Shown: positions 4,309 through 42,082 of the stretch, piece by piece
How positions within the stretch are numbered: the first letter of the stretch is position 1
Layout: the number at the start of each line of letters is the position of its first letter
DNA from: Hamadaea flava
GTDB lineage: Bacteria > Actinomycetota > Actinomycetes > Mycobacteriales > Micromonosporaceae
NCBI RefSeq assembly: GCF_024172085.1
Contig: NZ_JAMZDZ010000001.1
Span: 5,208,001-5,272,000 of the forward strand
Direction of reading: 5' to 3'
DNA: 64,000 bases
The notes under the pieces: generated by a model
Told to the model about the DNA's origin: nothing
Databases searched by the model: none
What the model saw: only the letters and a program-made list of their open reading frames with translations
Position numbers and translations under genes: made by a program

Positions 4309-5268
4309 ATGCCGGTCTGGCTGGAGTTGGCGCTGCGGGTGGGCGGCGTCATGATCGCCTTCCTCGTCCTGCCCCTGATCGTCGGACAGACCGAGCACAA
4401 GGTGATGGCGCACATGCAGGGCCGGCTCGGCCCGATGTACGCCGGCGGCTTCCACGGCTGGGCGCAGCTCGTGGCCGACGGCGTGAAGTTCGCGCAGAAG
4501 GAGGACGTCACGCCCCGGGCGGCCGACCGGCCGGTGTTCAAGTTCGCGCCGATCATCGCGTTGCTCCCGTACATGCTGGCCCTGCTGGTGATCCCGCTCG
4601 GACCCGGCGACCTGGTCGGGCAGTCCCTCGACATCGGCCTGTTCTTCGTCCTCGCGGTCCTCGGCATCGGCGTGGTCGCCGTGCTCATGTCCGGCTGGGC
4701 CTCGGCGAACAAGTATTCGCTGCTGGGCGCTTTGCGGGCGGCGGCACAGCTGATGGCGTACGAGTTGCCTCTTGTGCTGTCGGCGGCCAGTGTCGCCATG
4801 GCGGCCGGGACCCTGTCGCTGAGCGGCATCGTGGAAGCCTGGCGGCCGTGGTGGCTCGCCTGGCAGCTGCCCGCGGCGATCATCTTCTTCATCGCCGGCC
4901 TGGCGGAGATCCGGCGTCCGCCGTTCGACATGCCGGTCGCCGACTCCGAGCTGGTCTTCGGCTACATGACCGAGTACACCGGCCTCCGCTTCGCGTTCTT
5001 CCTGCTCGCGGAGTACGTCGGCATCGTGGTCATCTCGGCGTTGACCTCGGTGCTGTTCCTCGGCGGCTGGCACGGTCCCGGCCCGGACAGCCTCGGCTGG
5101 CTCTGGATGCTGATCAAGACCTTCGCCGTGGCGTTCGTCGTGATCTGGATCCGGGTCTCCTACCCCCGCCTCCGGGAGGACCAGCTGCAGCGGTTGTGCT
5201 GGCTGGTCCTGGTTCCGGTGGCGTTGGCGCAGCTCGTGCTGACCGCGGTGGTACGCGTACTGGGGTGA
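4309..5268 (+). CDS. nuoH: NADH-quinone oxidoreductase subunit H (NuoH)
   Basis: A 319-residue multi-spanning membrane subunit that forms the quinone entry region between peripheral and membrane arms. Diagnostic segments are MAHMQGRLGPMYAGGFHGW, the loop ADGVKFAQKEDVTP, and EIRRPPFDMPVADSELVFGY (family: E-x-x-R-x-P-F-D-x-x-E-x-E). The first loop reads TEHKV rather than the usual ERRV/ERKV. A good Shine-Dalgarno (GGGGTGAG) precedes the ATG. It restarts the nuo cluster after the secreted-protein gene. Confidence 0.96.
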   Translation: MPVWLELALRVGGVMIAFLVLPLIVGQTEHKVMAHMQGRLGPMYAGGFHGWAQLVADGVKFAQKEDVTPRAADRPVFKFAPIIALLPYMLALLVIPLGPGDLVGQSLDIGLFFVLAVLGIGVVAVLMSGWASANKYSLLGALRAAAQLMAYELPLVLSAASVAMAAGTLSLSGIVEAWRPWWLAWQLPAAIIFFIAGLAEIRRPPFDMPVADSELVFGYMTEYTGLRFAFFLLAEYVGIVVISALTSVLFLGGWHGPGPDSLGWLWMLIKTFAVAFVVIWIRVSYPRLREDQLQRLCWLVLVPVALAQLVLTAVVRVLG

Positions 5269-27287: not shown

Positions 27288-28904
27288 TCACCCGATGCAG
27301 ACGTAGTCGGCGACGTTGTAGGGCGAACCGCTCTCCTTCGCCGGCGTCGTGATGATCGAGACCTTGATCTGGTAGCCGGAAGTGCACCGGTCGCGCCAGA
27401 GCGTAGCTACGTCGAAGTCATCGGTGTCGGAGTAGGAAAGCGAACCCTGGAGCGTCTTCGTGTCCGTGTAGAGCACGGTGCCGTACTCTCCGCCGTTGGG
27501 GTCGACCTGGACGAAACGGAGCCGGTAGGTCAGCTTGTTCGTGTTGGAGGCGCGGATCGCCCAAGTCGCGCGGATGAGACTGGTCGATGCGCCGCATTTG
27601 CCGGAGAAGTAGCACGCAGTCGTCACAGAGGCCGTTGTCACGCGCGGCGCGGTGGGGCTGGGCGACGGGCTCTTGGAGGTGGGCTTGGGCGTCGGCGACT
27701 TCGTCTTCGACTTCGTTGGCGTCGGCGATGCGGTCGTCGGCGACACCGAGGGCGACGCCGACGGAGAGTCGGACGGCAACGGGGAGTCGGTCGGCGAGGC
27801 CGAGGGGGACTCTTCCGGAAGCACGGAAGAAGGCGACGACGACGGGAGGGCGGACGTGTTGGCGGCGTCCGTCGGGTTGAGGGCCACACAGCCGCCGACG
27901 CTGCCGCCGACGACGACAACCGTGATGGTCCCGGCGACCAGGGCCTTCTTCACCCCGCTCGACAGCGAACGGAGTCGGTGGCCGACGCCCTTGCCCAGGG
28001 CGGAGTCCGCGACGGCGGTGCCGGACATCGAGGCGAGCGCGAGTGGGAAGAGCGCGGCGAGCAGCAGGGCGCGGCGGGCGAGCTTCTTCTTGCCCTCTTC
28101 CTCCCATTGCGGGCCATACGCCGCGCCAGCCACAGCCTCCAACTCGCGGAGAAACATCGAAGCGTTGGTGGGGCGCTGCGCCGGGTCCTTGGCGAGCCCG
28201 CGTCGCAGCAGTCCGCGTATCCCTTCGGGCGCGGCGTCGACCGGGATGGGCGCGGACTCGTGCTGCCGGCGGAGCTGGACCAGGTCGCCCGGGGCCCGGT
28301 AGGGCGGCGCGCCGGTGAGGCACTCGAAGAAGGTGGCGGTGGCCGCGTAGATGTCGGTCTGCGGGGTGGCCGTGCCGGCCGCCCACTGTTCGGGGGCCAT
28401 GTAGCTGGGTGTGCCCGCGAGCGCCCCGGTACGCCCGGCGCGGACGGCGATGCCGAAGTCCGCGAGCTTGCTCTGGCCTTGCGCGTCGACCAGCACGTTC
28501 TCGGGTTTGTAGTCGCGGTGGACGATGCCGAGTCTGTGTGAGGCGGCCAGGCCCAGAAGCGAGCCCTTGAGCACGACGAGCGCGGCCTCGGGTTCGGCCG
28601 GGCCCTGCTCCCGGATGATCTTGCGGAGGGCGACGCCGTCGACCAGTTCCATGACGATCGCCGCGCCGCCGGGGTTCTCGACGTACTCGTAGAGGCGGGC
28701 GACGTGGTCGTCTTGGACCTCGGCGAGGATGCGGGCCTCGGCCCGGAACTCGCGGAGGAAGGTCTCGTCGTTCTTCAGGTTGTCGGCGAGGTACTTGATC
28801 GCGACGGGCACCCCCGTCTGATCGTGCGTGGCGAGCACGACCAACCCGGACGCGCCGCGCCCCAACTCCTGAACCGCCGTATATCCCGGCACCGACCAGG
28901 TCAT
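27288..28904 (-). CDS. membrane Ser/Thr protein kinase with secreted C-terminal domain
   Basis: A 538-residue Hanks-type kinase with all catalytic residues: glycine loop GRGASGLVV (15-23), VAIK Lys37, HRDYKPEN (Asp131), DFG (149-151) and GTPSYMAPEQW. It has two hydrophobic stretches (about 278-298 and 321-342), then a Ser/Pro/Thr linker (about 350-420) and a roughly 115-residue external domain with Cys at 431, 437 and further on. GGGGAGGCGAC precedes the ATG, which overlaps the stop of the FHA/M50 gene (ATGA). The coupling suggests that the kinase phosphorylates something recognised by that FHA domain; this is inference. Confidence 0.9.
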   Translation of the reverse strand: MTWSVPGYTAVQELGRGASGLVVLATHDQTGVPVAIKYLADNLKNDETFLREFRAEARILAEVQDDHVARLYEYVENPGGAAIVMELVDGVALRKIIREQGPAEPEAALVVLKGSLLGLAASHRLGIVHRDYKPENVLVDAQGQSKLADFGIAVRAGRTGALAGTPSYMAPEQWAAGTATPQTDIYAATATFFECLTGAPPYRAPGDLVQLRRQHESAPIPVDAAPEGIRGLLRRGLAKDPAQRPTNASMFLRELEAVAGAAYGPQWEEEGKKKLARRALLLAALFPLALASMSGTAVADSALGKGVGHRLRSLSSGVKKALVAGTITVVVVGGSVGGCVALNPTDAANTSALPSSSPSSVLPEESPSASPTDSPLPSDSPSASPSVSPTTASPTPTKSKTKSPTPKPTSKSPSPSPTAPRVTTASVTTACYFSGKCGASTSLIRATWAIRASNTNKLTYRLRFVQVDPNGGEYGTVLYTDTKTLQGSLSYSDTDDFDVATLWRDRCTSGYQIKVSIITTPAKESGSPYNVADYVCIG

Positions 28905-30634
28905 GCCGTCGCCTCCCCAGGCTCGGTCAGCGAACGCTTTGCCGCCGTTCGCCGCACCAGTGTGGACACCTTCTTGTAGATGCGGAACCAGATCGGAAAC
29001 ATCAAGACACCCAGCCCGATGACGATCACCGGAATCGCGAAGCCGGCCGGGAGGTACTTCTGGACCATCCCGTCGAGTCGCGTACGCCAGCTGAACACGG
29101 CCATCACCATGAAGGCCGTCATGCCGACAACGGCCGTCATCCCGTAGGCCGCCATGCCCCACTGCTTCAGCCCGGGACGCTTACCGCCCCGCAGGTCGGC
29201 CCAGATCCCCTTGGTGAAGTAGGCCGACGCCTCCTCCCGCAGCCGTGGCATGCGAAGCGCGTCGGACAGCGCCTGGTAGCCGTCGAGCGGCATGAGCGGA
29301 TTGAGGTTGTAGATCGTGTTCAGATAGAGCGCGAAGGCGATCTGGAAGGCGATCCCGGAGACGACCGGCTGCGGCACATAGGCGGCGACGACCGAGGCGG
29401 CTCCCGCGACGGCTGCGGTCGACAGCGGACCCGACAACGTCACCACGATGCGCGACCAGCGCGTACCGAACCACATGTCGCTCGTGTCCACAAAGGCGAA
29501 CGGCATGCCCATCATCAGCATGAAGCCGCCGCGGGTCACTTTGCGGCCATACGATTTCACGGCCAGCGCGTGCGCGCTCTCGTGGATCGCCAGCGCGATC
29601 AGGCAGACCGCCGCCACCACGATCGCGCCGGCCAGGCCCGCGCCGCCCACATCGAACAGCTGCTGCTTGCGCTGCGCGACGAAGAAGGCGTAGAGACCAC
29701 CCAAGATCAAAATCCACAAGCCGACCACACTTGTACGCGTGAAGAAGCGCCACCCGAACGCTCGGTACATCCGGCCGACCAGGGCGTCCAAGCCCTTCAC
29801 CGACAGCTCCAGCCGTAGCAGCGCCCGGAAGATCGCCTGGCCGATCCGCTTCAGCAGCGGCGGCCGCTCCGGATCGCGTTGACCATAGAGCCCGCGGACG
29901 AGCCCGATCGCGGCGAACGTCCGCAGGGTGTGCTCGATCCGGGGGAGGGCCAGTTCGCCGTACTTGTCGGCGTACAGGAAGAGCAGGTCGCGAACGCTGT
30001 TCTCGCCGTCCAGACTGGTCCACAGGAACGCGTCCCGGTCGTCGAGCTGAAGATATTGCCCCGTACGCGTGTTGCTCAGCACCCACTGCTCGACCCCGCG
30101 ACTGTCCGGGACCTGCTTGAGCGCCCAACCCGACCGCCGCCGGGGAACCGCCGACAACGGCTCGGTCGCGGTGGCCGCCTCCGGCTGTTGCCTCGCCGCG
30201 GCGAGCATCGTGTATTCGGTGCCCTTGACCATCGTCTTGGAGCCGACAGCCGCGCTCCGCGGTTGCGCGAAGCGGACCGGGACGTCCCCGAAGAGCAGCT
30301 CCATCTCGTCGTTGAGGGCCGCTCGATCGCCGTGGAGCGTACGCCCGCCGACGGTGGTCCCGTTGAACGAGCTGAGATCCTCAAGCACGAAACCCTCGGG
30401 TCCCCGGGTGATCCGGGCGTGGTGCCGGGAGACGCTCGGGTCGTCCAGGATCAGGTCGTTGTCACTGGTACGCCCGATCGTCGTGACCGGACCGACCAAC
30501 GGGTACGCCTGCCCCGCGTGCCGCAGCTCCGGAGCCGCGAACTCGGCGATCTTGGCGCCTTTGCGCAGCGTGCCGCAGTGCAGGCAGTACGGGTAGTCCC
30601 GGCGCAGGTGCACGTGACAGGCGTGGCAGAGCAT
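28901..30634 (-). CDS. zinc-ribbon/FHA/PqqD-like/M50 membrane metalloprotease fusion
   Basis: A 577-residue multi-domain membrane protein. In order: zinc ribbon (Cys3, 6, 17, 20); FHA domain (about 47-122, GRTSDNDLILDDPSVSRHHARI and SSFNGTTVGG); PqqD-like winged-helix region (about 170-250, VLSNTRTGQYLQLDDRDAFLW ... GLVRG), the fold that binds RiPP leaders; then several helices with an M50 site-2-protease signature, HESAH at 351-355 and NPLMPLDGY (Asp451) at about 445-453. It resembles proteins annotated as putative peptide zinc metalloproteases. Gene order, with a leader-like protein upstream and a kinase downstream, suggests recognition and cleavage of that protein at the membrane. Architecture is clear; substrate is inferred. 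Confidence 0.85.
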   Translation of the reverse strand: MLCHACHVHLRRDYPYCLHCGTLRKGAKIAEFAAPELRHAGQAYPLVGPVTTIGRTSDNDLILDDPSVSRHHARITRGPEGFVLEDLSSFNGTTVGGRTLHGDRAALNDEMELLFGDVPVRFAQPRSAAVGSKTMVKGTEYTMLAAARQQPEAATATEPLSAVPRRRSGWALKQVPDSRGVEQWVLSNTRTGQYLQLDDRDAFLWTSLDGENSVRDLLFLYADKYGELALPRIEHTLRTFAAIGLVRGLYGQRDPERPPLLKRIGQAIFRALLRLELSVKGLDALVGRMYRAFGWRFFTRTSVVGLWILILGGLYAFFVAQRKQQLFDVGGAGLAGAIVVAAVCLIALAIHESAHALAVKSYGRKVTRGGFMLMMGMPFAFVDTSDMWFGTRWSRIVVTLSGPLSTAAVAGAASVVAAYVPQPVVSGIAFQIAFALYLNTIYNLNPLMPLDGYQALSDALRMPRLREEASAYFTKGIWADLRGGKRPGLKQWGMAAYGMTAVVGMTAFMVMAVFSWRTRLDGMVQKYLPAGFAIPVIVIGLGVLMFPIWFRIYKKVSTLVRRTAAKRSLTEPGEATA

Positions 30635-30665
30635 CTCGGGCCTTTCTGACTCGGCTCTGTTCCCT

Positions 30666-30726
30666 GCGGATCACGGTTATGCAGGTGATCTGGGGCCGAG
30701 ATCGCATGCGTAACCGTGATCCGCAG
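30666..30726. repeat. 61-bp palindromic element, copy 2
   Basis: The left arm TGCGGATCACGGTTATGCA (30666-30684) pairs, with one G-T mismatch, with TGCGTAACCGTGATCCGCA (30708-30726). The 23-bp core can pair further (GATCT/AGATC). Arms match the element at 11682-11742. It lies between the FHA/M50 gene and its upstream neighbour on the same strand, so it may attenuate read-through. Confidence 0.82.
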
Positions 30727-30826
30727 CCTTCGGGCTGACGGGTAGGGCCGGCCGGGGCGAGCACGGGGGAGACTCGGCCCCGGCCGGCGTACTCGGCGGA
30801 GGGTGGGTGCTCTCCGCGAGTCGGTG

Positions 30827-33265
30827 CTAAGCGTTGGGTTGCGTCTTGTCCTCGTCGTCGTCCTTGCCGGCGAACTTCGCGCCCGCGATGCCGCCCGCGA
30901 TCCCGCCGACCACCACGCCGGCGACCACGCCGCCCGCGCCCATGGCCAGCTCGGTCATGCCGATGCCGCCGTCGTCGCTCGCGCCGCCGCCCTGGGCGCC
31001 GCCCGCCTGACCGCCGTCGGCCGGCGGGGTCGTCGTGCCCGGGGCGTGCGAGGCGGCTGCCGCGTCGGCCGCGGCCACCGGGGACTCCGTCTCGGGCTGC
31101 TCGGCCGGCGGCTGCTCGGTCGAGGGCTCCGGGGTGGGCGTACCGGTGTGGCCGGTGCCGCCGCCCATGCCGCCCGTCCCGGTTCCTTCGGTGCCGGTCC
31201 CGCCGTCGGTTCCAGTGCTGTCGGAGGGCTCCGGCGTCGGCGTGCCGCCGTCGCTGCCCGGGTCGGTGGGACCGGGGTCGGTGGGACCGGGGTCGGTGGG
31301 ACCGGGGTCTGTGGGACCGGGGTCTGTGGGACCGGGGTCTGTGGGGCCGGGGTCGGTGGGACCGGGGTCGGTGGGTGCGCCGCCGTCGCCCGGGTCGAAG
31401 ACCGGCGGGTCGCCGAGTACGCCGCCCGGGTCGACCGGGTGCACCGGGTCCACGATGATGCCCGGGTCGAAGACGAGGTCGCCTTCGAGGATGTCCGGCG
31501 TGCCGTCGCCGTCGCTGTCGGCCAGCGTGCCCGGGAAGATCGGGTGGACCGGACCGTCGGGCGTCGGGTCGAGGTAGTTCGGCGTGCCGTCGCCGTCGTT
31601 GTCGCCGAACAGACCGGACAGATCCAGATCCGGCAGGCCGCCGGGGAAGACCGGGCTCGGCGGCGGGTCGCCGTTCGGCGTCGAGTCGAAGATGTCCGGG
31701 GTGCCGTCGCCGTCGGTGTCCAGCCCCAGGCCAGGCAGCCCGCCCGGGAAGCCCGGGAATCCGCCGGGGGTGTCTGCGCCGCCGTCGCCTTCGCCGCCGA
31801 GGCCCGGAATTCCGCCCGGCCAGGTGCCCAGCCCTTCCAAGGAATCGGGCAGGCCGTCGCCGTCGGTGTCGGGGCCGAAGTCCGGGAGGCCGCCGTCTGG
31901 TGCGTCGCCGCCGTCGGTGCCGCCGTCCCCGCCGAGGCCGGGAATGGCACCCCAGGTCCCGAGTCCTTCGAGCGAATCGGGCAGGCCGTCGCCGTCGGAG
32001 TCGGGGCCGAAGTCCGGCAGCCCGCCGTCCGGTGCGTCGCCGCCGTCCGAGCCGTCACCAGTCCCGGGAATGGTGGGGAAGATGTCGGGGAGCGATTCCA
32101 TGAAGTCGGGCACGCCGTCGCCGTCGCTGTCCGGGCCCCAGTCTGGTCCGCCGGAGCCGTCCGAGTCGGTGTCCGTCATGTTCGGGATGCCGTCGCCGTC
32201 GGCGTCCTCGAACGCGTCCGGCGTACCGTCGCCGTCGCTGTCCGGGCCGAAGTCCGGCAGGCCGAGGCCGCTCGGGAACGGGCTGCCGCCGTCCTCGCCA
32301 CCACTGTCGCCGTCGCTGAGGTTGCCGAGGTCGGGCAGGTGGAAGTCGGAGCCGACGAGGCCGGCGAGCCGACCGCCGGGCGGCAACGTGGCCAGCTCCT
32401 CGCCGCCGCCGGAGTCGCCGCCGCCGGAGTCGCCGCCGTCGGGACCGCCGCCGTCCGAGCCGCCGTCGGAACCGCCGTCACCGGTGCCGAAGTCCAGGTC
32501 GCCGATGAGTCGCAGCGGCTGCGGTGCGTCGCCGCCGGGCGCGATCGGGTCCGGCGAATCCGTGTGACCGAGGTCGGGCAGGACGAGGTTCATCGGCGTC
32601 GGGTCGCCGCTGGGCGGCGTGGGCGGAGTCGGCAGCCCACCGGGCCCACCGCTGGGGCCGCCACCGGGTCCGTCGTCGCCACCGGTGAGGTGCAGCGCGC
32701 CCGGGGTCAGGTGCAGGCTGCTCGGCGGCGGAGGCGCGGGGTCGTCCTGCTTCGGGCCGATCTCCAGACCGCCGTGGCCGCCGTCGCCGCCACCCGCGCC
32801 GTCCGGGGTCGGGTGCAGTCCACCCTGGACGATGATGGCCGGGGACGGCGTACCTCCGTTGCCGGACGGGGGCTCGCTGCCGCCGGGCGGGGTGGTGCTC
32901 GGGCCGTCGTCCGGGCCGGAGTCGCCGCCGCCCGAGTCGCCCGGACCGTCGTGGCCGCCGTCGGCCGGGGTGACGGTGTGCGGTGCGATGTGCACCTCGG
33001 GCGCCACGTGCGCGTCCACGTGCAGGTCGGGGCCGGAGGTCAGGGCGGTCGCCAACCCGCCGGTCGTCACACCGCTCTTGGAGAGGCGTACGCCGAGCGC
33101 CTGCGGGCCGCTGCCCGTGGAGGCGTCGGCCAGGCCGCGGAGGCGGTCGGACTCCTCGGAGGTCAACCCGTACTCGGCGGCCACCTGGTCGGGGTGGGAT
33201 CGCGCATGCCGGGCGAACTCCGCGTCCACCGCCATCCGCGCGATCACGTCGCGGAACTGGGACAT
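30827..33265 (-). CDS. leader-like N terminus plus TSP3-type calcium-repeat and PTDPG-repeat protein
   Basis: An 812-residue, extremely Gly/Asp/Pro-rich protein. Residues 1-50 form an amphipathic helical segment (MSQFRDVIARMAVDAEFARH, then HPDQVAAEYGLTSEE) resembling Nif11/LigA-like RiPP leaders, not a Sec signal peptide. Low-complexity Gly/Asp/Ser sequence follows, then about a dozen thrombospondin type-3-like units (DSDGDGTPD, DTDGDGLPDSLEGLG) expected to bind calcium, then eight PTDPG repeats. The C terminus has one Gly-rich hydrophobic helix (GGVVAGVVVGGIAGGIAGAK) and an acidic tail. GAAGGAC precedes the ATG at 33265. It appears to be the substrate of the downstream FHA/M50/kinase genes; I know of no named family for the whole protein. 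Confidence 0.8.
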   Translation of the reverse strand: MSQFRDVIARMAVDAEFARHARSHPDQVAAEYGLTSEESDRLRGLADASTGSGPQALGVRLSKSGVTTGGLATALTSGPDLHVDAHVAPEVHIAPHTVTPADGGHDGPGDSGGGDSGPDDGPSTTPPGGSEPPSGNGGTPSPAIIVQGGLHPTPDGAGGGDGGHGGLEIGPKQDDPAPPPPSSLHLTPGALHLTGGDDGPGGGPSGGPGGLPTPPTPPSGDPTPMNLVLPDLGHTDSPDPIAPGGDAPQPLRLIGDLDFGTGDGGSDGGSDGGGPDGGDSGGGDSGGGEELATLPPGGRLAGLVGSDFHLPDLGNLSDGDSGGEDGGSPFPSGLGLPDFGPDSDGDGTPDAFEDADGDGIPNMTDTDSDGSGGPDWGPDSDGDGVPDFMESLPDIFPTIPGTGDGSDGGDAPDGGLPDFGPDSDGDGLPDSLEGLGTWGAIPGLGGDGGTDGGDAPDGGLPDFGPDTDGDGLPDSLEGLGTWPGGIPGLGGEGDGGADTPGGFPGFPGGLPGLGLDTDGDGTPDIFDSTPNGDPPPSPVFPGGLPDLDLSGLFGDNDGDGTPNYLDPTPDGPVHPIFPGTLADSDGDGTPDILEGDLVFDPGIIVDPVHPVDPGGVLGDPPVFDPGDGGAPTDPGPTDPGPTDPGPTDPGPTDPGPTDPGPTDPGPTDPGSDGGTPTPEPSDSTGTDGGTGTEGTGTGGMGGGTGHTGTPTPEPSTEQPPAEQPETESPVAAADAAAASHAPGTTTPPADGGQAGGAQGGGASDDGGIGMTELAMGAGGVVAGVVVGGIAGGIAGAKFAGKDDDEDKTQPNA
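31263..31375 (-). repeat. 15-bp tandem repeat encoding PTDPG, 7.5 copies
   Basis: Seven full 15-bp units (plus-strand TCGGTGGGACCGGGG with small variants) and a partial eighth lie within the calcium-repeat protein gene. Being in frame, they encode a PTDPG spacer whose length could change by slippage without a frameshift. Confidence 0.9.
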
Positions 33266-33484
33266 GTCCTTCGATCCTTTCTCGGTGGCTGTCTGGGGGC
33301 TTGCCAGGAACGAGTACGAAGGTAGGAAGCGAGCCGCTCGGTGGTCATCGGGCCGGGTACGGAACTTTCCCATGCGCGGGTTCTCCGTACTGCCATCCGT
33401 ACCGCTCTGGGTACCCTCCGGGCGGAGGATGGCCGGTCGGCCGCAGGAGTGAATAGCGTCGCCGGAAAGGGTGGGGGTGAGGAC

Positions 33485-36076
33485 GTGCGGTTCGTCGGGC
33501 GCGCGGTGGAGCTGGGGGCTCTGGCCGGGCACGCCCGTGCGGTCGTCGACGAGCGGCGGCTCCGCGTGGTGCTGCTGATCGCCGAACCCGGCCGGGGGGC
33601 GAGCGGGCTGTTGGAGGAGTTCCATCGACGGACTCCGGCACTTCGATACGCACGTGTGGCGCCGCCCCGAGCCGCGGGCGCGCCCGCGCTCTGGCCGTGG
33701 CAGCGGGTGCTGGCCGACCTCGGTTCGCCGTCGGCTGTGGACGACGTCTGGTCGGCGCAGGCCGCCTTGTCCCAAGCCTTCGCGGAGACCGGGCCGGTGC
33801 TCGTCGCGCTGGACGACCTGCACCGCGCCGCCGAGGAGACGCTGACGCTGCTCGCCGAGTACGCCGATCAGCCGCCCGCGACCCCGACACTCGTCGTCGC
33901 GGTGGTACGCCCAGCCGTCGCGGAGACGCTGCCGTCCGGTCCGGCCGCGTACCGGGTGTGGTTGCCGGGGTTGAGCCGGGACGAGGTCGGCGAGATGCTG
34001 GCCGGAACGGTCGCCTGGCCGGTGCCGGAGGCGCTCGCGACGCAGCTGCGCCGCCGGACCGACGGCAGCCCCGCGTTGCTGACCGCGGTCGCCGGGCAGC
34101 TGCGGGAGTCCGACGACGGGCGGCGCCGGGTCGCCCTGCGCTGGCCGGAGTCGGCGACGGCACCGATCACCGGCCGCCTGGCCGCGCTGACCGAGCCCGC
34201 CCGGCACGTCCTCGGGATCGCCTCGGTCGTCGGCCGGGAGTTCGATCTGTCCATCGTGGAGGAAGTTGCCGGGGACGCCGCGTTGCCCGCGCTGGAGGAG
34301 GCGATCACGGCCGGGCTGATCCGGCCCGTGACCGATCGCGTCTTCGCCTTCGACTCCGCGCTCGTCCGTGAACTGAGCTACGACTCCCTCGGCCTGACCG
34401 AGACCGCCGGCCTGCACGAGGCGGTCGCCGACGCGTTGCTCTCGGTCGGCGCGCGGGCGGGCGAACGTGCGCCCACTGTGGCCGAGCTGTCCCATCACCT
34501 GGTCGCGGCGGCGGTGCTCGGCGGCGACGAACGCCTGGACCGGGCGGTCGCCGCCACCGTCGCGTCCGCTCGGGCCGCCGAACGTCCGGCGGAGGCGGCG
34601 GACGCTTTCGCCGTCGCGGTGGAACTGGCCTCCCGGGCGCAGTGGTCCCCCGGCCACCTGGGCCGGCTGCTGGTCGCGTACGGGTCCGCGCAACTGCAGT
34701 CCGCGCACCGGGAACAGGCCCGAGACGCGTTCGCGGCGGCGGTACGCCTCGGCCGCCAAGCGAAGGACGCCGGACTGCTCGCCGAGGCGGCGTTGGCGTA
34801 CGGGCCGCGATCGGGGTCGGGTGCGACGGCGGAGCCGACCGACCCGCAGCGGGCGACCGCGCTCACCGAAGCACTCGCCCTCCTCAACGCCCCGCTGCCG
34901 CCCCGACCGCCCGCCCCTGAAGACGAGCTGCGCGGCTATCTCCGTGGCGCCGATCTGTCCACTGTGGCTCGACTGCGCGCCCGGCTGGCGTTGGAGTCGA
35001 CCGGAGCGGCGGCTCGCACGCTCGCCGAGCAGTCGCTGGCGGCGGCCCGCGAATGCGCCGACCCCCGCGCGATGGCTGAAGCACTGCTCGCGCAGGTCGA
35101 GCCGGACGCCGACCAGCTGCGGCAGGCGCTTCGTGAGGCCGGGGCGCTGGACGACGGCGTACTGCTGAGCCGGGCGCATCGGGCGGTGGCCGCGCTGTCC
35201 ATGCGGGACGGCGACCTTGGTCTGGCCGACCGGCATCTGGCCGAGGTGGACGGCGTACCGGAGATCGCGGCGCATCGCCTCGTCCTGGCGGGCAAGGTGG
35301 CCGCCGCCCGAGAGCACCTCACGGTGACGGCTGACTTGGAAGGGCTCGCGGCATACGCCGGACTGCGGTTGCTCGACGGCGACCCGGGCGACCTCGGCGA
35401 TCGGTTGCGGGACGTCGGCGGTCCACTATGGATAACCGCCGCCCAGTCCTGGATCGCCCGCGCCGACGGGCGCGACGAACTGGCCGGCGCGCTGATCGAG
35501 GAGCTGGCCGCTCAGCCCCTCGACCCCTGGACGATCGCGTTCGTCGTCGCGGCCGAGCCCGACGCCGCTGCCGCCGACCGGCTCGGTGCGCGGCTTTCCG
35601 CGTATCAGGGGAAATGGATCGTGGCGGGACCGGCGACGGCGAGTGCCGGACCCACGGCGCTGATGGCAGCTCGACTGGAAGCGGACCCGAAGCGCGTCAC
35701 GGCCTGGCTGGACGACGCGACGCGCGTGGTCGGTAACACGCCGTGGCTCGCCTGGCTCCGTTGGGAGCGGGCGCGGCTGCGCGCGGACGCGCAGGACGTG
35801 AAGGGCGCGCGGACGTTCGCCGCCGAGCGCGGCCTTTCCGGCCTGGTACGCCGAATCGACCGGTTCGAGCCGCCGGACGGCCGGACGCTGACCCGGCGCG
35901 AGCAGGAAGTGCTCGAATTGGCCGCGGCCGGAGCCTCCGCGCGGGAGATCGCGGAACGGCTGGTGATCGGCGAGCGAACAGTCGAGACCCACCTCGCGAA
36001 CATCTACCGCAAGCTCGGCGTGCGCAGCCGGGTGGAATTGGTGGCTCATCTCCGGGACAGCAGGAGACCCGTGTGA
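33485..36076 (+). CDS. LuxR-family regulator with AAA-like domain, degenerate Walker A
   Basis: An 863-residue large LuxR regulator (MalT/AcoK-like). The N terminus is an ATPase-like module (RFVGRAVELGALAGHARAV), but the P-loop reads AEPGRGASG at residues 33-41 instead of G-x4-GK-S/T, so the catalytic Lys is missing. A Walker B-like VLVALDDLHRA remains. The middle is a long TPR-like helical array. The C terminus is a complete LuxR helix-turn-helix (LTRREQEVLELAAAGASAREI ... TVETHLANIYRKLGV). The GTG at 33485 follows GGGGTGAGG. It is divergent from the calcium-repeat gene across 219 bp, hence a plausible local regulator. Confidence 0.85.
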   Translation: MRFVGRAVELGALAGHARAVVDERRLRVVLLIAEPGRGASGLLEEFHRRTPALRYARVAPPRAAGAPALWPWQRVLADLGSPSAVDDVWSAQAALSQAFAETGPVLVALDDLHRAAEETLTLLAEYADQPPATPTLVVAVVRPAVAETLPSGPAAYRVWLPGLSRDEVGEMLAGTVAWPVPEALATQLRRRTDGSPALLTAVAGQLRESDDGRRRVALRWPESATAPITGRLAALTEPARHVLGIASVVGREFDLSIVEEVAGDAALPALEEAITAGLIRPVTDRVFAFDSALVRELSYDSLGLTETAGLHEAVADALLSVGARAGERAPTVAELSHHLVAAAVLGGDERLDRAVAATVASARAAERPAEAADAFAVAVELASRAQWSPGHLGRLLVAYGSAQLQSAHREQARDAFAAAVRLGRQAKDAGLLAEAALAYGPRSGSGATAEPTDPQRATALTEALALLNAPLPPRPPAPEDELRGYLRGADLSTVARLRARLALESTGAAARTLAEQSLAAARECADPRAMAEALLAQVEPDADQLRQALREAGALDDGVLLSRAHRAVAALSMRDGDLGLADRHLAEVDGVPEIAAHRLVLAGKVAAAREHLTVTADLEGLAAYAGLRLLDGDPGDLGDRLRDVGGPLWITAAQSWIARADGRDELAGALIEELAAQPLDPWTIAFVVAAEPDAAAADRLGARLSAYQGKWIVAGPATASAGPTALMAARLEADPKRVTAWLDDATRVVGNTPWLAWLRWERARLRADAQDVKGARTFAAERGLSGLVRRIDRFEPPDGRTLTRREQEVLELAAAGASAREIAERLVIGERTVETHLANIYRKLGVRSRVELVAHLRDSRRPV

Positions 36077-38239: not shown

Positions 38240-39481
38240 GTGCGGAGCCTGCGTACCTGGGCCGGCGACACGGTAGGTGGCCTTCCGGCCACCTTCTGGT
38301 ATCTCTGGCTAGGCACGCTGATCAACCGCCTCGGTGCGGTGGCCGTGCTGTTCCTGGAGATCCACATGGTCTCGGGGTACGGCTTCTCCGCCACCCTCGC
38401 CGGCCTGGTGCTCGGTCTCTACGGCGGCGGCATGGCGCTCGGCTCCATCGCGGGCGGCGTCCTGGCCGACCGGTGGGGCCGCCGGCCGACGCTGCTACTG
38501 GCCAATATCGCGGGCGTCGTCACCGCGCTCGCTCTCGGGATCACCCTCACGCCCTGGTTCGTCGCGCTCACCGCGCTGGTCTACGGCTTCTGGAACGGTC
38601 TCGGGCGGCCGGCGTACAGCGCGACCCTGGTCGACGTGCTCGGCCCGACCAAGCGCATGCGCGGCATGAACCTCAACTACTGGGCGATCAACCTCGGGTT
38701 CTCCGGCGCGGCCTTCCTGGCCGGCGTACTGGCGCACACCCCGCGCATGGTCGTCTTCGTGCTGAACGCGGCGGTGCTCGCGATCACCACCGTGATCATC
38801 GCGGTGAAGGTCCCCGAGACCTCGCCTGGTCCGGCGTTGTCCGCGCCGAAGGAGGGCGGGGGGATCTCGCTAGTCCTGCGCGACCGGGTCTTCATGATCT
38901 ACGTGCTGCTCAATCTGGGCCTGTGGTCGATCATCGAGTCGTGCAAGCTCATCCCGATCGCCATGGTCAACCAGGGGATCGATCCCGCGAACTACGGCTC
39001 GGTCATCGCGGTGAACGGCGTCATGATCGTGGCGCTGCAACTGTTCATCCCCAAGCTCGTCGGGCGGCACCCGCGTAATCGCGTACAGATCGCCTCGGCG
39101 CTGCTGGTCGGGCTCGGGATGGGCGCGGTCGGCCTGGCCGGCAGCGTGCCCACGCTCGCGCTCACCGTCGCGGTGTGGACGCTCGGCGAGATGATCAACG
39201 CGCCGGTCAACGGCACGACCATCGCCGACCTGTCGAGCCCGGCGATGCGCGGTCGCTACCAGGGCGTCGCCTCGATGAGTTTCACGGCCGCCAACTTCTT
39301 CGCGCCGATCGTCGGCGGCCTGGTCCTGGACAACAGCCCGCACGCCACGCTGTGGTTCGGCCTCGGGGTCCTCGGCCTGATCCTCGCGGTCGGCCATCTC
39401 CTCTCCGGTCCCGCGCGCGAGCGCCGGGCCGCGCACCTCACTCAGCCGGAGGTGGTACGCGATGAGGCGCTGGTTGCGTGA
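38240..39481 (+). CDS. MFS transporter, tandem paralogue 1
   Basis: A 413-residue, 12-helix major facilitator. GTG start at 38240. The MFS loop 2-3 motif is GGVLADRWGRRPTLL; other landmarks are GGLPATFWYLWLGTLINRLGA at the N terminus and MRGRYQGVASMSFTAANFFAP in helix 10-11. Substrate unknown; the family resembles drug or metabolite exporters. It is the first of three paralogues in one operon, overlapping the next gene by 20 bp. Confidence 0.88.
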   Translation: MRSLRTWAGDTVGGLPATFWYLWLGTLINRLGAVAVLFLEIHMVSGYGFSATLAGLVLGLYGGGMALGSIAGGVLADRWGRRPTLLLANIAGVVTALALGITLTPWFVALTALVYGFWNGLGRPAYSATLVDVLGPTKRMRGMNLNYWAINLGFSGAAFLAGVLAHTPRMVVFVLNAAVLAITTVIIAVKVPETSPGPALSAPKEGGGISLVLRDRVFMIYVLLNLGLWSIIESCKLIPIAMVNQGIDPANYGSVIAVNGVMIVALQLFIPKLVGRHPRNRVQIASALLVGLGMGAVGLAGSVPTLALTVAVWTLGEMINAPVNGTTIADLSSPAMRGRYQGVASMSFTAANFFAPIVGGLVLDNSPHATLWFGLGVLGLILAVGHLLSGPARERRAAHLTQPEVVRDEALVA

Positions 39482-40757
39482 CACCACCGGCGGTCTGCCG
39501 CGACAGTTCTGGTATCTCTGGACCGGGACGCTGATCAACCGCGTCGGCGGTTTCGTCGTCATCTTCCTCACCATCTACCTGACGACCGTGCGGCACTTCA
39601 CACCGTCCCAAGCCGGCCTGATCATGGGGGTCTGGGCGGCCGGCGGCGCGTTGGGCAACATGCTCGGCGGTGTGGCCGCTGACCGGATCGGCCGCAAGGT
39701 AACCCTGCTCACCGGCCAGGTCGCCGGGGCGGCGACGCTGCTCGCGATGGCCTTCACCTCGGCGTACTGGGGCATCGCCGGGTTGGCGTTCCTCTTCGGG
39801 GTGTTCGCCGACGGGGCCCGTCCAGCGTTCGGCGCGATGCTGATCGACATCGTTCCGGAGAAGGACCGGCTGCGCGCGTTCACCCTGAACTACTGGGTGA
39901 TCAACCTCGGGTTCGCGTTCGCCGCGACGCTCGCGGGCCTCGCCGCGGCGGCCGACTATCACCTGGTCTTCCTGGTCGACGCGGCGACGACGCTCGTCAC
40001 CGCCACGTTCCTGTTCTTCACGTTGCGGGAGTCCAAGTCCGCCCGCCCGGCCTCCTCCTCGTCGGCCACCTCCTCCTCGTCGGCCTCCTCGTCGGCCGCC
40101 TCGGCGGTGGCGTCGGCCGCCAAGGGCGGGCTGCGGGTCGTGTTCACCGACCGGATCTTCCTGATCTTCGCCGGGCTGAACATCCTCAGCGCGTTCGTCT
40201 TCCTTCAGCACCTCACGACGCTGCCGATCGCCATGGCCGCCGACGGCATCTCCGGGCAGACCTACGGCTACGTGATCGCGTTGAACGGCGTGCTCATCGT
40301 GATCGGGCAGCTGTTCATCCCCAGGCTGACCAGAGGCATGACCCGTACGCGGATGCTGGCCGTCGCCTCGATCGTCACCGGGCTGGGCTTCGGGCTCACC
40401 GCGCTGGCGAACACCCCGCTGTTCTACGCCGCCACCGTCTTCGTCTGGACGCTCGGCGAGATGGTCAACGCCCCGGCCAACTCCACCACCATGGCCGCTC
40501 TCTCCCCAGCCGACCTGCGCGGCAGATACCAGGGCGTGTTCTCGCTCTCCTGGTCGATCGCCGGGTTCGTCGCGCCGACCGTCGGCGGATTCCTCCAAGA
40601 ACACGTCGGCAACACCTTCCTCTGGCTGCTGTGCGCGGGCATCGGATTGGCCGTCGCCGCAGCTCAGGTAGCCTCGGGACCGGCGCGCGAACGCAGAGCC
40701 GCGATCCTCGCCCCACCCCCACCGGCTGTGTCCCGGCAGCCGACCCCCGTTTCGTAA
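39462..40757 (+). CDS. MFS transporter, tandem paralogue 2
   Basis: A 431-residue major facilitator closely related to its neighbours: GGLPRQFWYLWTGTLINRVGG start, loop GGVAADRIGRKVTLL and LRGRYQGVFSLSWSIAGFVAP. The central cytoplasmic loop carries an unusual Ser/Ala run (SSSSATSSSSASSSAAS) absent from paralogue 1. The ATG lies within the end of paralogue 1. Confidence 0.88.
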   Translation: MRRWLRDTTGGLPRQFWYLWTGTLINRVGGFVVIFLTIYLTTVRHFTPSQAGLIMGVWAAGGALGNMLGGVAADRIGRKVTLLTGQVAGAATLLAMAFTSAYWGIAGLAFLFGVFADGARPAFGAMLIDIVPEKDRLRAFTLNYWVINLGFAFAATLAGLAAAADYHLVFLVDAATTLVTATFLFFTLRESKSARPASSSSATSSSSASSSAASAVASAAKGGLRVVFTDRIFLIFAGLNILSAFVFLQHLTTLPIAMAADGISGQTYGYVIALNGVLIVIGQLFIPRLTRGMTRTRMLAVASIVTGLGFGLTALANTPLFYAATVFVWTLGEMVNAPANSTTMAALSPADLRGRYQGVFSLSWSIAGFVAPTVGGFLQEHVGNTFLWLLCAGIGLAVAAAQVASGPARERRAAILAPPPPAVSRQPTPVS

Positions 40758-40768
40758 GGATTCGCGTC

Positions 40769-42082
40769 TTGTTCTCTCGCTTCTGGTCGCAGACCGCCGG
40801 AGGACTGCCCCGTGTCTTCTGGACGCTCTGGTCGGCGATCCTCGTCAACCGGATCGGCGCCTTCGGCATGCTGTTCCTCCCGCTCTACCTCAGCGCCGGG
40901 CGTGGGCTCTCGCTCACCGCGGCGGGCCTGGTCACCGCCGGGTACGGCATCGGCGGCGCGGGCGGCAGCCTGATCGGCGGCGTACTGGCCGACAGCTGGG
41001 GCCGCCGCGCCACCATGGTCACCGCGAACGGCATCGCCGCCGCGTTGATGCTGGCCCTCGCGTTCGCTCAGCCGCTGTGGCTCATCGCCGGGCTGACCCT
41101 GTTCATCGGGATCTTCCACTCGATGCCCGGCCCGGCGACCGTCGCGGCCATCATCGACATCGTTCCCGAGGAATCCCGGTCCCGCGCGTTCAACCTCCAG
41201 TTCTGGGCGTTCAACCTGGGCATGGCGATCGCCTCCGCCCTCGCCGGCGTGATCGCCGAGGTCGGCTTCTTCTTCCTCTTCGCCCTGGACGCGGCGACGA
41301 CCGCGATCACGGCGTACGTGCTCTTCCGGCATGTGCCGGAGACGCTGATGCTGCGGCAGGGCCGCCCGTCCCGTCCGTGGGCCACCCGGCCCTGGCCGGC
41401 CCGCCCGATCGGCTCCCGGCCGCACCCGGCCAGCGGGCAGGTCAAGCGCTCGACCACCCCGGGCGGCCTCGGTACGGCGCTCACCGACCCGATCTTCATG
41501 GTGTTCGTCGGGCTGACCTTCATCGCGGCGATCCTCAACTCGCAGACCTCGATCCTGCAGCTCGCCATGAACGCCGACGGCCTCTCGCCGGCGGCGTACG
41601 GGATCGTGGCGGCGGTGCCGGGCCTGCTGATCGTCCTCGGCCAGCTCTTCGTGCCCCGGCTCATCCAAGGCCGGCTGAAGGGCCGAGTCCTCGCGCTGTC
41701 CCTGGCCGTCTCCGGGATCGGCTACTTCACGCTCACCTTCGCCGACGTCTTCGGGGCGTACCTGATGGCGGCGGCGATCTGGACGATCGGCTCGATGATC
41801 GCGGCCCCGCCGAACGCCGAAGTCATCGCCGAACTCGCCCCGGCCCGGCTGCGCGCCCGCTACCAGGCGGTCTTCTTCCTGACCTTCCCGGCGGCCGGGT
41901 TCGTCGCCCCGGCGGTCGGCGGCTGGTCGCTGGAGCACCTCGGGGACGTGCACTGGGTTCTCATCGGCGTACTCGGCCTCGCGGCCGCCGCCGGGCACCT
42001 GCTCGCCAGCCGGCCGCGGGAACGCCGCGTCGCGCGGCTGCTGGCCGCGCCCGCCGCCCTCCCCACCAGCGCCACCGTCTAA
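40769..42082 (+). CDS. MFS transporter, tandem paralogue 3
   Basis: A 437-residue major facilitator. TTG at 40769 is taken as start: AAGGA lies 8 bp upstream, and it begins the conserved FSRFWSQTAGGLPRVFW. The frame upstream is open but overlaps paralogue 2. It has GGVLADSWGRRATMV and LRARYQAVFFLTFPAAGFVAP. The middle loop is Arg/Pro-rich (RPSRPWATRPWPARP), so the three copies differ most there. Confidence 0.87.
   Translation: MFSRFWSQTAGGLPRVFWTLWSAILVNRIGAFGMLFLPLYLSAGRGLSLTAAGLVTAGYGIGGAGGSLIGGVLADSWGRRATMVTANGIAAALMLALAFAQPLWLIAGLTLFIGIFHSMPGPATVAAIIDIVPEESRSRAFNLQFWAFNLGMAIASALAGVIAEVGFFFLFALDAATTAITAYVLFRHVPETLMLRQGRPSRPWATRPWPARPIGSRPHPASGQVKRSTTPGGLGTALTDPIFMVFVGLTFIAAILNSQTSILQLAMNADGLSPAAYGIVAAVPGLLIVLGQLFVPRLIQGRLKGRVLALSLAVSGIGYFTLTFADVFGAYLMAAAIWTIGSMIAAPPNAEVIAELAPARLRARYQAVFFLTFPAAGFVAPAVGGWSLEHLGDVHWVLIGVLGLAAAAGHLLASRPRERRVARLLAAPAALPTSATV

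Follow-up and report, generated by a model that had tools for sequence, protein, structure and literature searches.

A possible FHA-gated site-2 protease for large leader-tagged proteins in Hamadaea flava and its relatives

What could join a very large protein with a peptide-type leader, a membrane protease and a Ser/Thr kinase in a single bacterial locus? The question is raised by a window of 64,000 nucleotides from Hamadaea flava (Micromonosporaceae; positions 5,208,001 to 5,272,000 of NZ_JAMZDZ010000001.1, a genome of 8.86 Mb on a single contig), in which three consecutive genes of the minus strand encode P0001 (30827..33265), a cargo protein of 812 residues from its ATG with a leader domain, a Gly/Pro/Asp-rich middle and a C-terminal helix; P0002 (28901..30634), a site-2 protease of 577 residues that carries zinc-ribbon, FHA, PqqD-type RRE and M50 domains according to domain scans, a structure model and a family alignment; and P0003 (27288..28904), a membrane Ser/Thr kinase of 538 residues (Pfam E 1.1e-44) whose start ATG sits within the ATGA that closes the P0002 gene. 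Divergent from these, on the plus strand, stands the gene of P0004 (33485..36076), an AAA/LuxR regulator of 863 residues with an uncertain GTG start, whose relatives are divergent to leader genes in other genomes too. A sequence-only reading of the window had described the 812-residue protein with its leader-like start, DxDGDG repeats and C-terminal helix, the zinc-ribbon/FHA/PqqD-like/M50 protein, the overlapping kinase and the divergent LuxR gene, and all of these are present where and as it placed them. Four further features were absent from it: a swapped kinase ectodomain, an invariant protease threonine (Thr134), the gene of a pseudokinase-like protein (P0005), and a second group of M50 relatives (group B) with leader proteins of their own.

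We propose, with a probability of roughly 55%, that the locus encodes a protease related to MpaP of the daptide pathway but gated by an FHA domain, and that it trims large proteins with a leader tag in response to a kinase. In this account P0002 would recruit its large substrate by binding the NHLP/Os1348-type leader with the PqqD-like RRE domain, and its site-2 protease part would cut that leader off near an RLSKS motif, as MpaP has been assigned to do for short daptide precursors. The ectodomain of P0003 would sense an outside cue; the kinase would then phosphorylate P0002, most likely at Thr134, and the phosphothreonine would dock on the FHA domain to switch the protease on or off, as in GarA and OdhI. 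The cargo behind the leader would be free to change, and so would the kinase sensor.

The first line of evidence is gene linkage, which exceeds chance because it recurs in other genera and in a Chloroflexi metagenome-assembled genome (MAG). A contig scan with alignment A1 returned 45 loci, of which 38 (L063-L100) match P0002 from residue 1 and are termed FHA type here; they occur in Hamadaea, Catellatospora, Catelliglobosispora, Rhizocola, Longispora, a Micromonosporaceae MAG, Streptomyces and Actinomycetospora, as well as in Catenulispora-type MAGs, a Jatrophihabitans MAG and the Chloroflexi MAG. A profile of the leader picked out 36 genes, spread over 29 of these 38 loci; the 29 range from Hamadaea through Streptomyces to Chloroflexi. 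Among the nine FHA-type loci without a leader gene, three contigs (L063, L068, L069) start inside the cargo gene, whose C-terminal part is seen, three (L075, L077, L095) hold less than 1.4 kb upstream of the protease gene, two (L092, L094) are short MAG contigs, and in Longispora (L097) a leader gene lies 30 kb away. The spacing is tight in Streptomyces, where the leader gene ends about 9 bp before the protease gene in 11 of 14 leader-bearing loci; it stands elsewhere in the locus in L091, as do four of the five leader genes of L099. The kinase and protease genes are neighbours in 18 of 20 family loci, and in one genome (G207) the protease gene lies 19 kb off, yet the leader, kinase and LuxR genes stay together.

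Co-occurrence across 300 genomes of the family points the same way, with counts that are lower bounds, the genome searches having scored few candidates per genome. A match to P0002 (E<=1e-25) was found in 136 genomes and a leader match (E<=1e-6) in 80, and all 80 fall within the 136 (hypergeometric 4e-36, with genomes counted as independent of kinship). The leader search gave 106 hits, and for 76 of them an M50 relative is encoded on the same strand at a distance of no more than 20 kb. In 21 cases, from 17 loci and with one at 19 kb, the hit is upstream of an FHA-type gene, and in the other 55 it is downstream of a group-B gene. Across the order the FHA type is patchy, with matches in 2 of 150 genomes at E<=1e-30, the window's own and one that matches only from residue 153.

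The group-B relatives align to P0002 mostly from about residue 158 and thus without the FHA domain, in frames mostly of 1050-1200 residues, and all three that we scanned, two of them from outside the family, carry a cyclic-nucleotide-binding (cNMP-binding) domain. Their leader genes lie 2.1-4.5 kb downstream at the 55 linked loci of the 300 genomes. Since group-B relatives also adjoin leader genes, the pairing of protease and leader persists under a changed input domain; a design with interchangeable sensors fits, because these relatives keep a leader partner while the FHA input is replaced. Two group-B neighbourhoods have further features. In L150 the protease gene stands between an HtrA-like gene (Trypsin_2, PDZ) and the leader gene, with a histidine-kinase-like gene, judged by eye, upstream, an arrangement that may possibly represent a site-1/site-2 protease pair. 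In an Elusimicrobia MAG (L107:7454-8100), three tandem small Os1348-type leader peptides precede a cNMP-PqqD-M50 gene, and the one that was scanned scores 58.5 bits, above the cut-off of the family model NF038399.

The leader domain itself occupies residues 1-50 of P0001 (33116..33265, minus strand, as for all features of P0001 to P0003 below). When the first 90 residues are scanned, residues 5-51 score 28.9 bits (E 9e-7) against the NCBIfam model NF038399 ('Os1348 family NHLP clan'). In alignment A3, which comprises the leader of the window and 36 found by the leader profile, all 37 match this model at E<=0.01, and kinship of the P0001 leader to Os1348/NHLP leaders is therefore likely from sequence; we do not claim membership of the named family. 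A Pfam scan of P0001 gave no match. Compared with solved chains, the A3 profile matched an 85-residue chain labelled 'nitrile hydratase alpha' (6lk7, E 3.3e-4), which, to judge by its length, is perhaps Os1348 itself, the borosin precursor SonA (E about 0.03) and an NHLP chimera (E 0.74), with nitrile hydratases and OphMA-type methyltransferases also among the matches; the best E in the table, 4e-5, belongs to 8vd6 ('CAP REPEAT'), over a 22-residue match with no stretch passing alone. An AlphaFold2 model of the leader places helices at 3-13, 15-23, 25-32 and 36-50, with block means of the predicted local distance difference test (pLDDT) of 76-87 over residues 1-50, low confidence beyond and an overall mean of 68. 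Submitted to Foldseek, the model drew 13 matches; the top five and two others, seven in all, are short chains from SonM/SonA complexes, with SonA-like lengths. Directly after the helices comes a motif LxxRLSKS, in which L57 and R60 are invariant among the 37 rows of A3 and L61 and S62 are at least 90% conserved; a similar R[LIV]SK occurs in leader-like proteins of L105 and L107. Its RLSKS core (residues 60-64, 33074..33088) is a candidate recognition or cleavage region.

The genome of the window also encodes a second leader-type protein, of 91 residues (G000:C1:6185167-6185343; L012:5069-5344), unlinked to the locus, and similar ones occur in two other Hamadaea genomes. Three weak leader-like matches (L003, L004, L005; E 0.17-1.4) were set aside, of which L003 lies, by eye, in an apparent primase gene and L004 in a non-coding-looking frame.

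The protease combines input, recognition and catalytic parts in one chain. In order, these are zinc-ribbon cysteines 3, 6, 17 and 20 (CxxC...CxxC, 30575..30628); an FHA domain at residues 51-116 (30287..30484; Pfam E 2.6e-16), whose closest folds are GarA, OdhI and EmbR (Foldseek, GarA/OdhI E 7.5e-7); Thr134 (30233..30235) in the linker between the FHA and RRE domains; the PqqD/RRE domain at residues 170-242 (29909..30127); and the M50 motif HExxH, here HESAH (residues 351-355, 29570..29584), with the distal Asp451 (29282-29284). Alignment A2, of 37 rows (the window, 35 of the 38 FHA-type loci with L069, L086 and L098 left out, and one group-B protein), shows the cysteines, Thr134, the HExxH and Asp451 in 36 of 36 FHA-type rows, as are G54, R55, S69, H72, N91 and G92 of the FHA domain; G, R, S, H and N are conserved residues of the phosphothreonine-binding site of FHA domains. 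Judged from these residues, the FHA phosphopeptide site and the M50 catalytic residues are intact in P0002. Thr134 falls within a segment predicted to be disordered (residues 127-157, pLDDT below 50), and is a candidate phospho-switch and the likeliest phospho-acceptor. In the P0002 model (mean pLDDT 74; predicted template modelling score 0.48), residues 170-242 form three strands and then three helices (block means of pLDDT 67-84), which is the order of the PqqD/RRE topology, and at E<=0.01 Pfam recognises M50 in 37, FHA in 36 and PqqD in 35 of the 37 A2 rows. The sequence-only reading thus survives the findings that could have told against it, since linkage is conserved, the residues it placed at 170-250 are PqqD-like in topology and across the family, and the N terminus of P0001, with its family match and four predicted helices, is not modelled as disordered; the co-occurrence it foresaw, between an FHA/PqqD/M50 protein and a leader-tagged neighbour, is there in the FHA-type loci and the leader-positive genomes alike.

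How far does this depart from known systems? In GarA and OdhI a phosphothreonine docks on the FHA domain of the same protein. In P0002, which has these as its nearest FHA folds, a flexible linker next to the FHA domain likewise carries an invariant Thr, but this Thr lies C-terminal to that domain and the output is a membrane protease; self-docking would hold here by analogy. Site-2 proteases of the SpoIVFB/RseP type are membrane M50 enzymes with a regulatory domain, as P0002 appears to be, but P0002 adds a predicted leader-recognising RRE and an FHA input. In daptide biosynthesis, leader removal is assigned to MpaP, an RRE fused to an intramembrane site-2 protease (PMC10036551). P0002 shares with MpaP the order of RRE and M50, the HExxH with a distal Asp, and a leader-bearing neighbour gene; it differs by the added zinc ribbon and FHA domain and by its large substrates, and residues 180-538 score 147.5 bits against the MpaP model NF041824, about half the equivalog cut-off of 300. 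The leader domains are of the Os1348/NHLP-clan type (NF038399; Pfam Frankia_peptide), but the gene of Os1348, a protein of 85 residues, is accompanied by those of a SagB-type enzyme, an HExxH protein and a predicted acetyltransferase (PMC7726476), whereas the proteins that begin with the domain in the present loci reach 3120 residues. The TMcin protease TmcP is also site-2-like and is treated under leader removal in the membrane, but it belongs to the DUF3267 family and has a small substrate, and the available part of its description makes no mention of FHA, PqqD, RRE or kinase (PMC13252029). A literature search that left most subscription journals outside its reach found no published description of an FHA-RRE-M50 protein with leader-tagged large proteins.

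What lies behind the leader bears on where the protease might cut. We surveyed 45 cargo rows, leaving three that are repeats (L093, two of L096) out of the motif counts, and found that the cargo differs by genus: Pro-rich or DxDGDG-bearing and mostly with a C-terminal helix in Micromonosporaceae, and 36-45% Gly in the 13 unbroken cases from Streptomyces. The leader proteins of Actinomycetospora reach 2216 and 3120 residues, that of L091 has 92, and the Chloroflexi MAG holds five, the last broken by the end of the locus. P0001 itself has nine DxDxDG motifs (TSP3-like, putatively calcium-binding) in residues 342-591 (31493..32242). At least two such motifs are present in 9 of the 20 group-A proteins from Micromonosporaceae versus 0 of 22 from Streptomyces, Actinomycetospora, a Catenulispora-type MAG and the Chloroflexi MAG, and we therefore reject calcium binding as the defining property of the cargo; by eye, DxDGDG-type motifs also appear in the C-terminal parts of six group-B cargo proteins (6 of the 55 linked loci). 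No hydrophobic stretch was found in the first 60 residues of any of the 45 rows (Kyte-Doolittle, KD, maximum 0.73), so that no ordinary signal peptide is visible, and the recurrent gene set of the locus maps contains no transporter. The substrate that the sequence-only reading had taken for a surface calcium-binding protein thus does not generalise as such on either count.

P0001 ends in a Gly/Ala/Val-rich hydrophobic helix (residues 773-796, 30878..30949, KD maximum 1.87) that is conserved among its Micromonosporaceae relatives, and site-2 proteases cleave helix-breaking membrane segments. The protease might then cut this helix, releasing the substrate from the membrane by regulated intramembrane proteolysis, while the leader merely recruits; a Gly-rich hydrophobic segment near the C-terminal end of 19 of 20 Micromonosporaceae group-A leader proteins (KD maximum 1.69-2.22) favours this idea. 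However, the orthologous proteases of Streptomyces, Actinomycetospora and the Chloroflexi MAG partner leader proteins that have no such helix (KD maximum at most 1.37 in 22 rows, including one from a Catenulispora-type MAG). The helix is disfavoured as a general cleavage site for that reason, and we consider this explanation unlikely.

The kinase, too, has a variable part. P0003 runs from a kinase domain through a hydrophobic stretch and a Pro/Ser-rich linker to an ectodomain (residues 421-538, 27291..27644), and the catalytic motifs VxIK, HRDxKPxN and DFG are present in 35 of 36 kinases checked, P0003 included (L095 is without VxIK). Among 19 Micromonosporaceae kinases, near-identical kinase parts carry quite different ectodomains (percent identity of kinase/ectodomain: L047 and L049 100/18, rounded; L048 and L052 98/29; L050 and L053 98/22; the window and L043 96/26; L043 and L044 97/23), and other pairs have the ectodomain in common (L049 and L053 97/92; L047 and L054 96/91). 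The DNA of L047 and L049 is 93-97% identical from the kinase start to +1050 and 88% at +1200, drops to 53, 44 and 60% in the following 150-bp bins as far as +1650, and returns to 94-98% in the next three bins. The ectodomain has been replaced locally, as a cassette, between near-identical kinases, since identity falls only across +1200 to +1650 and is high on both sides. When clustered by BLAST at E 1e-3, the 19 ectodomains fall into a loose cluster of 15 and a second cluster of L044, L046, L047 and L054; on this evidence many types are distantly related, and no relationship is detectable between the two clusters. Ectodomain groups, set by hand from these comparisons with L059 and L060 added by appearance, do not cluster on a kinase tree with several unsupported forks (11 changes against a shuffled mean of 11.4, as low in 103 of 200 shuffles; minimum 5). 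A search for a local donor pool covered 4 genomes for one ectodomain and 11 for another and found none: either ectodomain gave a single match in its own genome and a single match in one further genome. Leader type and ectodomain type showed no correlation in 13 pairs, and within Catellatospora the leader middles share 67-84% identity with agreeing and with differing ectodomains alike.

Such a pattern might mean that the polymorphic ectodomain marks self and non-self, or kin, with the tagged proteins as the response, which would be compatible with kinase-gated trimming. The local replacement, the scatter over the kinase tree and the lack of a second copy in the own genome for both ectodomains searched speak for it. 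Against it, the set is of 19 kinases only, 15 of whose ectodomains fall in one cluster, with many thus distantly related and not unrelated domains, the Streptomyces ectodomains look alike (that of the Actinomycetospora kinase L087 is replaced by a terminal Gly/Ser repeat), and phages, toxins or nutrients could produce the same pattern. We regard recognition of kin as doubtful.

Several observations weigh against kinase-gated trimming. The leader of P0001 stays below the curated cut-off of NF038399 (40 bits), with 23.7 bits when the whole protein is scanned, and all Foldseek matches of its model are weak (best E 4.5). P0002 is below threshold for both Pfam PqqD (17.5 bits, cut-off 23.4) and M50 (24.6 bits, cut-off 27.2), calls that are backed by the agreement of the A2 rows and the structure model. 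In group B, one scanned protein (Elusimicrobia, L107) passes the Pfam PqqD cut-off; PqqD was not found in the other two of the three, so that their RRE rests on alignment to P0002. Close relatives are favoured by the contig scan, which relied on two short conserved peptides. Among the 38 FHA-type loci, a P0003-type kinase was not seen in 6, of which at least three lie on contigs that are short or cut. Finally, 30 of the 106 leader hits lack a linked M50 relative, two of these lying near contig ends.

The unlinked hits also favour an account in which the leader is a sorting tag, read by some scaffold or export machine, and the protease has another target, as does the finding that several unlinked leader proteins are short (91-269 residues) and carry other cargo. 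Set against this are the presence of an M50 relative in every leader-positive genome and the retention of an RRE by the FHA-type protease, and we hold a sorting tag to be quite improbable. Unlinked leader proteins include a family of 101-104 residues in Catellatospora (eight read) and, in Hamadaea, proteins with repeated CNGH/CDGH units, possibly metal-binding, encoded away from a protease gene (L146:4435-5211 and L147, about 4360-4926); in L146 an AAA/LuxR gene is divergent from the leader gene.

Least probable of all is a cluster for a ribosomally synthesised and post-translationally modified peptide excised from its precursor: the NHLP/Os1348-type leader, the daptide-type protease, the reported NHLP clusters with a large Ser/Thr kinase (PMC2887384), and partial matches far below cut-off of P0003 and P0004 to TOMM kinase/cyclase models and of P0003 to lanthionine synthetase models all suggest one, but the cargo reaches thousands of residues, the kinase matches fit the shared kinase domain, and no modification family, including the daptide oxidative decarboxylase, aminotransferase and methyltransferase, was found among the operon proteins, 10 window neighbours (23485-43966) and 10 neighbours in Streptomyces L076.

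More tentatively, kinase-gated trimming may be one form of a general, sensor-coupled protein maturation in actinobacteria and Chloroflexi, in which leader tags of RiPP-precursor type on large, fast-changing proteins, an RRE-site-2 protease and an interchangeable input (FHA or cyclic-nucleotide) work together and the FHA form is driven by a membrane kinase with a cassette ectodomain that species exchange, as expected for the recognition of variable partners or enemies. Should kinase-gated trimming hold true, leader recognition would leave small-peptide chemistry and become on-command processing of giant proteins; RiPP biosynthesis, site-2 proteolysis and bacterial Ser/Thr kinase signalling would be joined, and a role would be suggested for a set of large low-complexity proteins without a signal peptide. 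The claims made are direct ones: that the RRE would bind the leader, that Thr134 would be the switch, and that the swapped ectodomain would set specificity.

Beyond the core genes, P0005 (21912..23351, minus strand) is a pseudokinase-like membrane protein of 479 residues with weak kinase-model matches only and neither HRD nor DFG, and its relatives lie directly 3' of the kinase gene in other genomes (maps by eye and BLAST). PADLOC matched P0003 and P0005 with kinase models (PD-T4-6, MAD6, others); we did not count these matches as evidence for defence, and an anti-phage label was rejected. A search for phage carriage gave no match, and 28 plasmid records match the query, none over 80% of it and at most 58% among the matches listed. 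A promoter and terminator scan found nothing. Pfam assigns the 10 window neighbours to a two-component pair, DUF559, a phosphoglycerate mutase, three MFS transporters and a TIM-barrel protein, with two unmatched; the three MFS genes follow one another on the plus strand (38240-42082) and are apparently tandem paralogues. Between the cargo and protease genes (30664-30726) lies an imperfect inverted repeat with 31-nt arms, whose half-site CTGCRGATCACGGTTAYGCA occurs 143 times in the genome with at most one mismatch, versus 0 for a reversed-pattern control, several times as pairs 43 bp apart, and we read it as a dispersed REP-like element.

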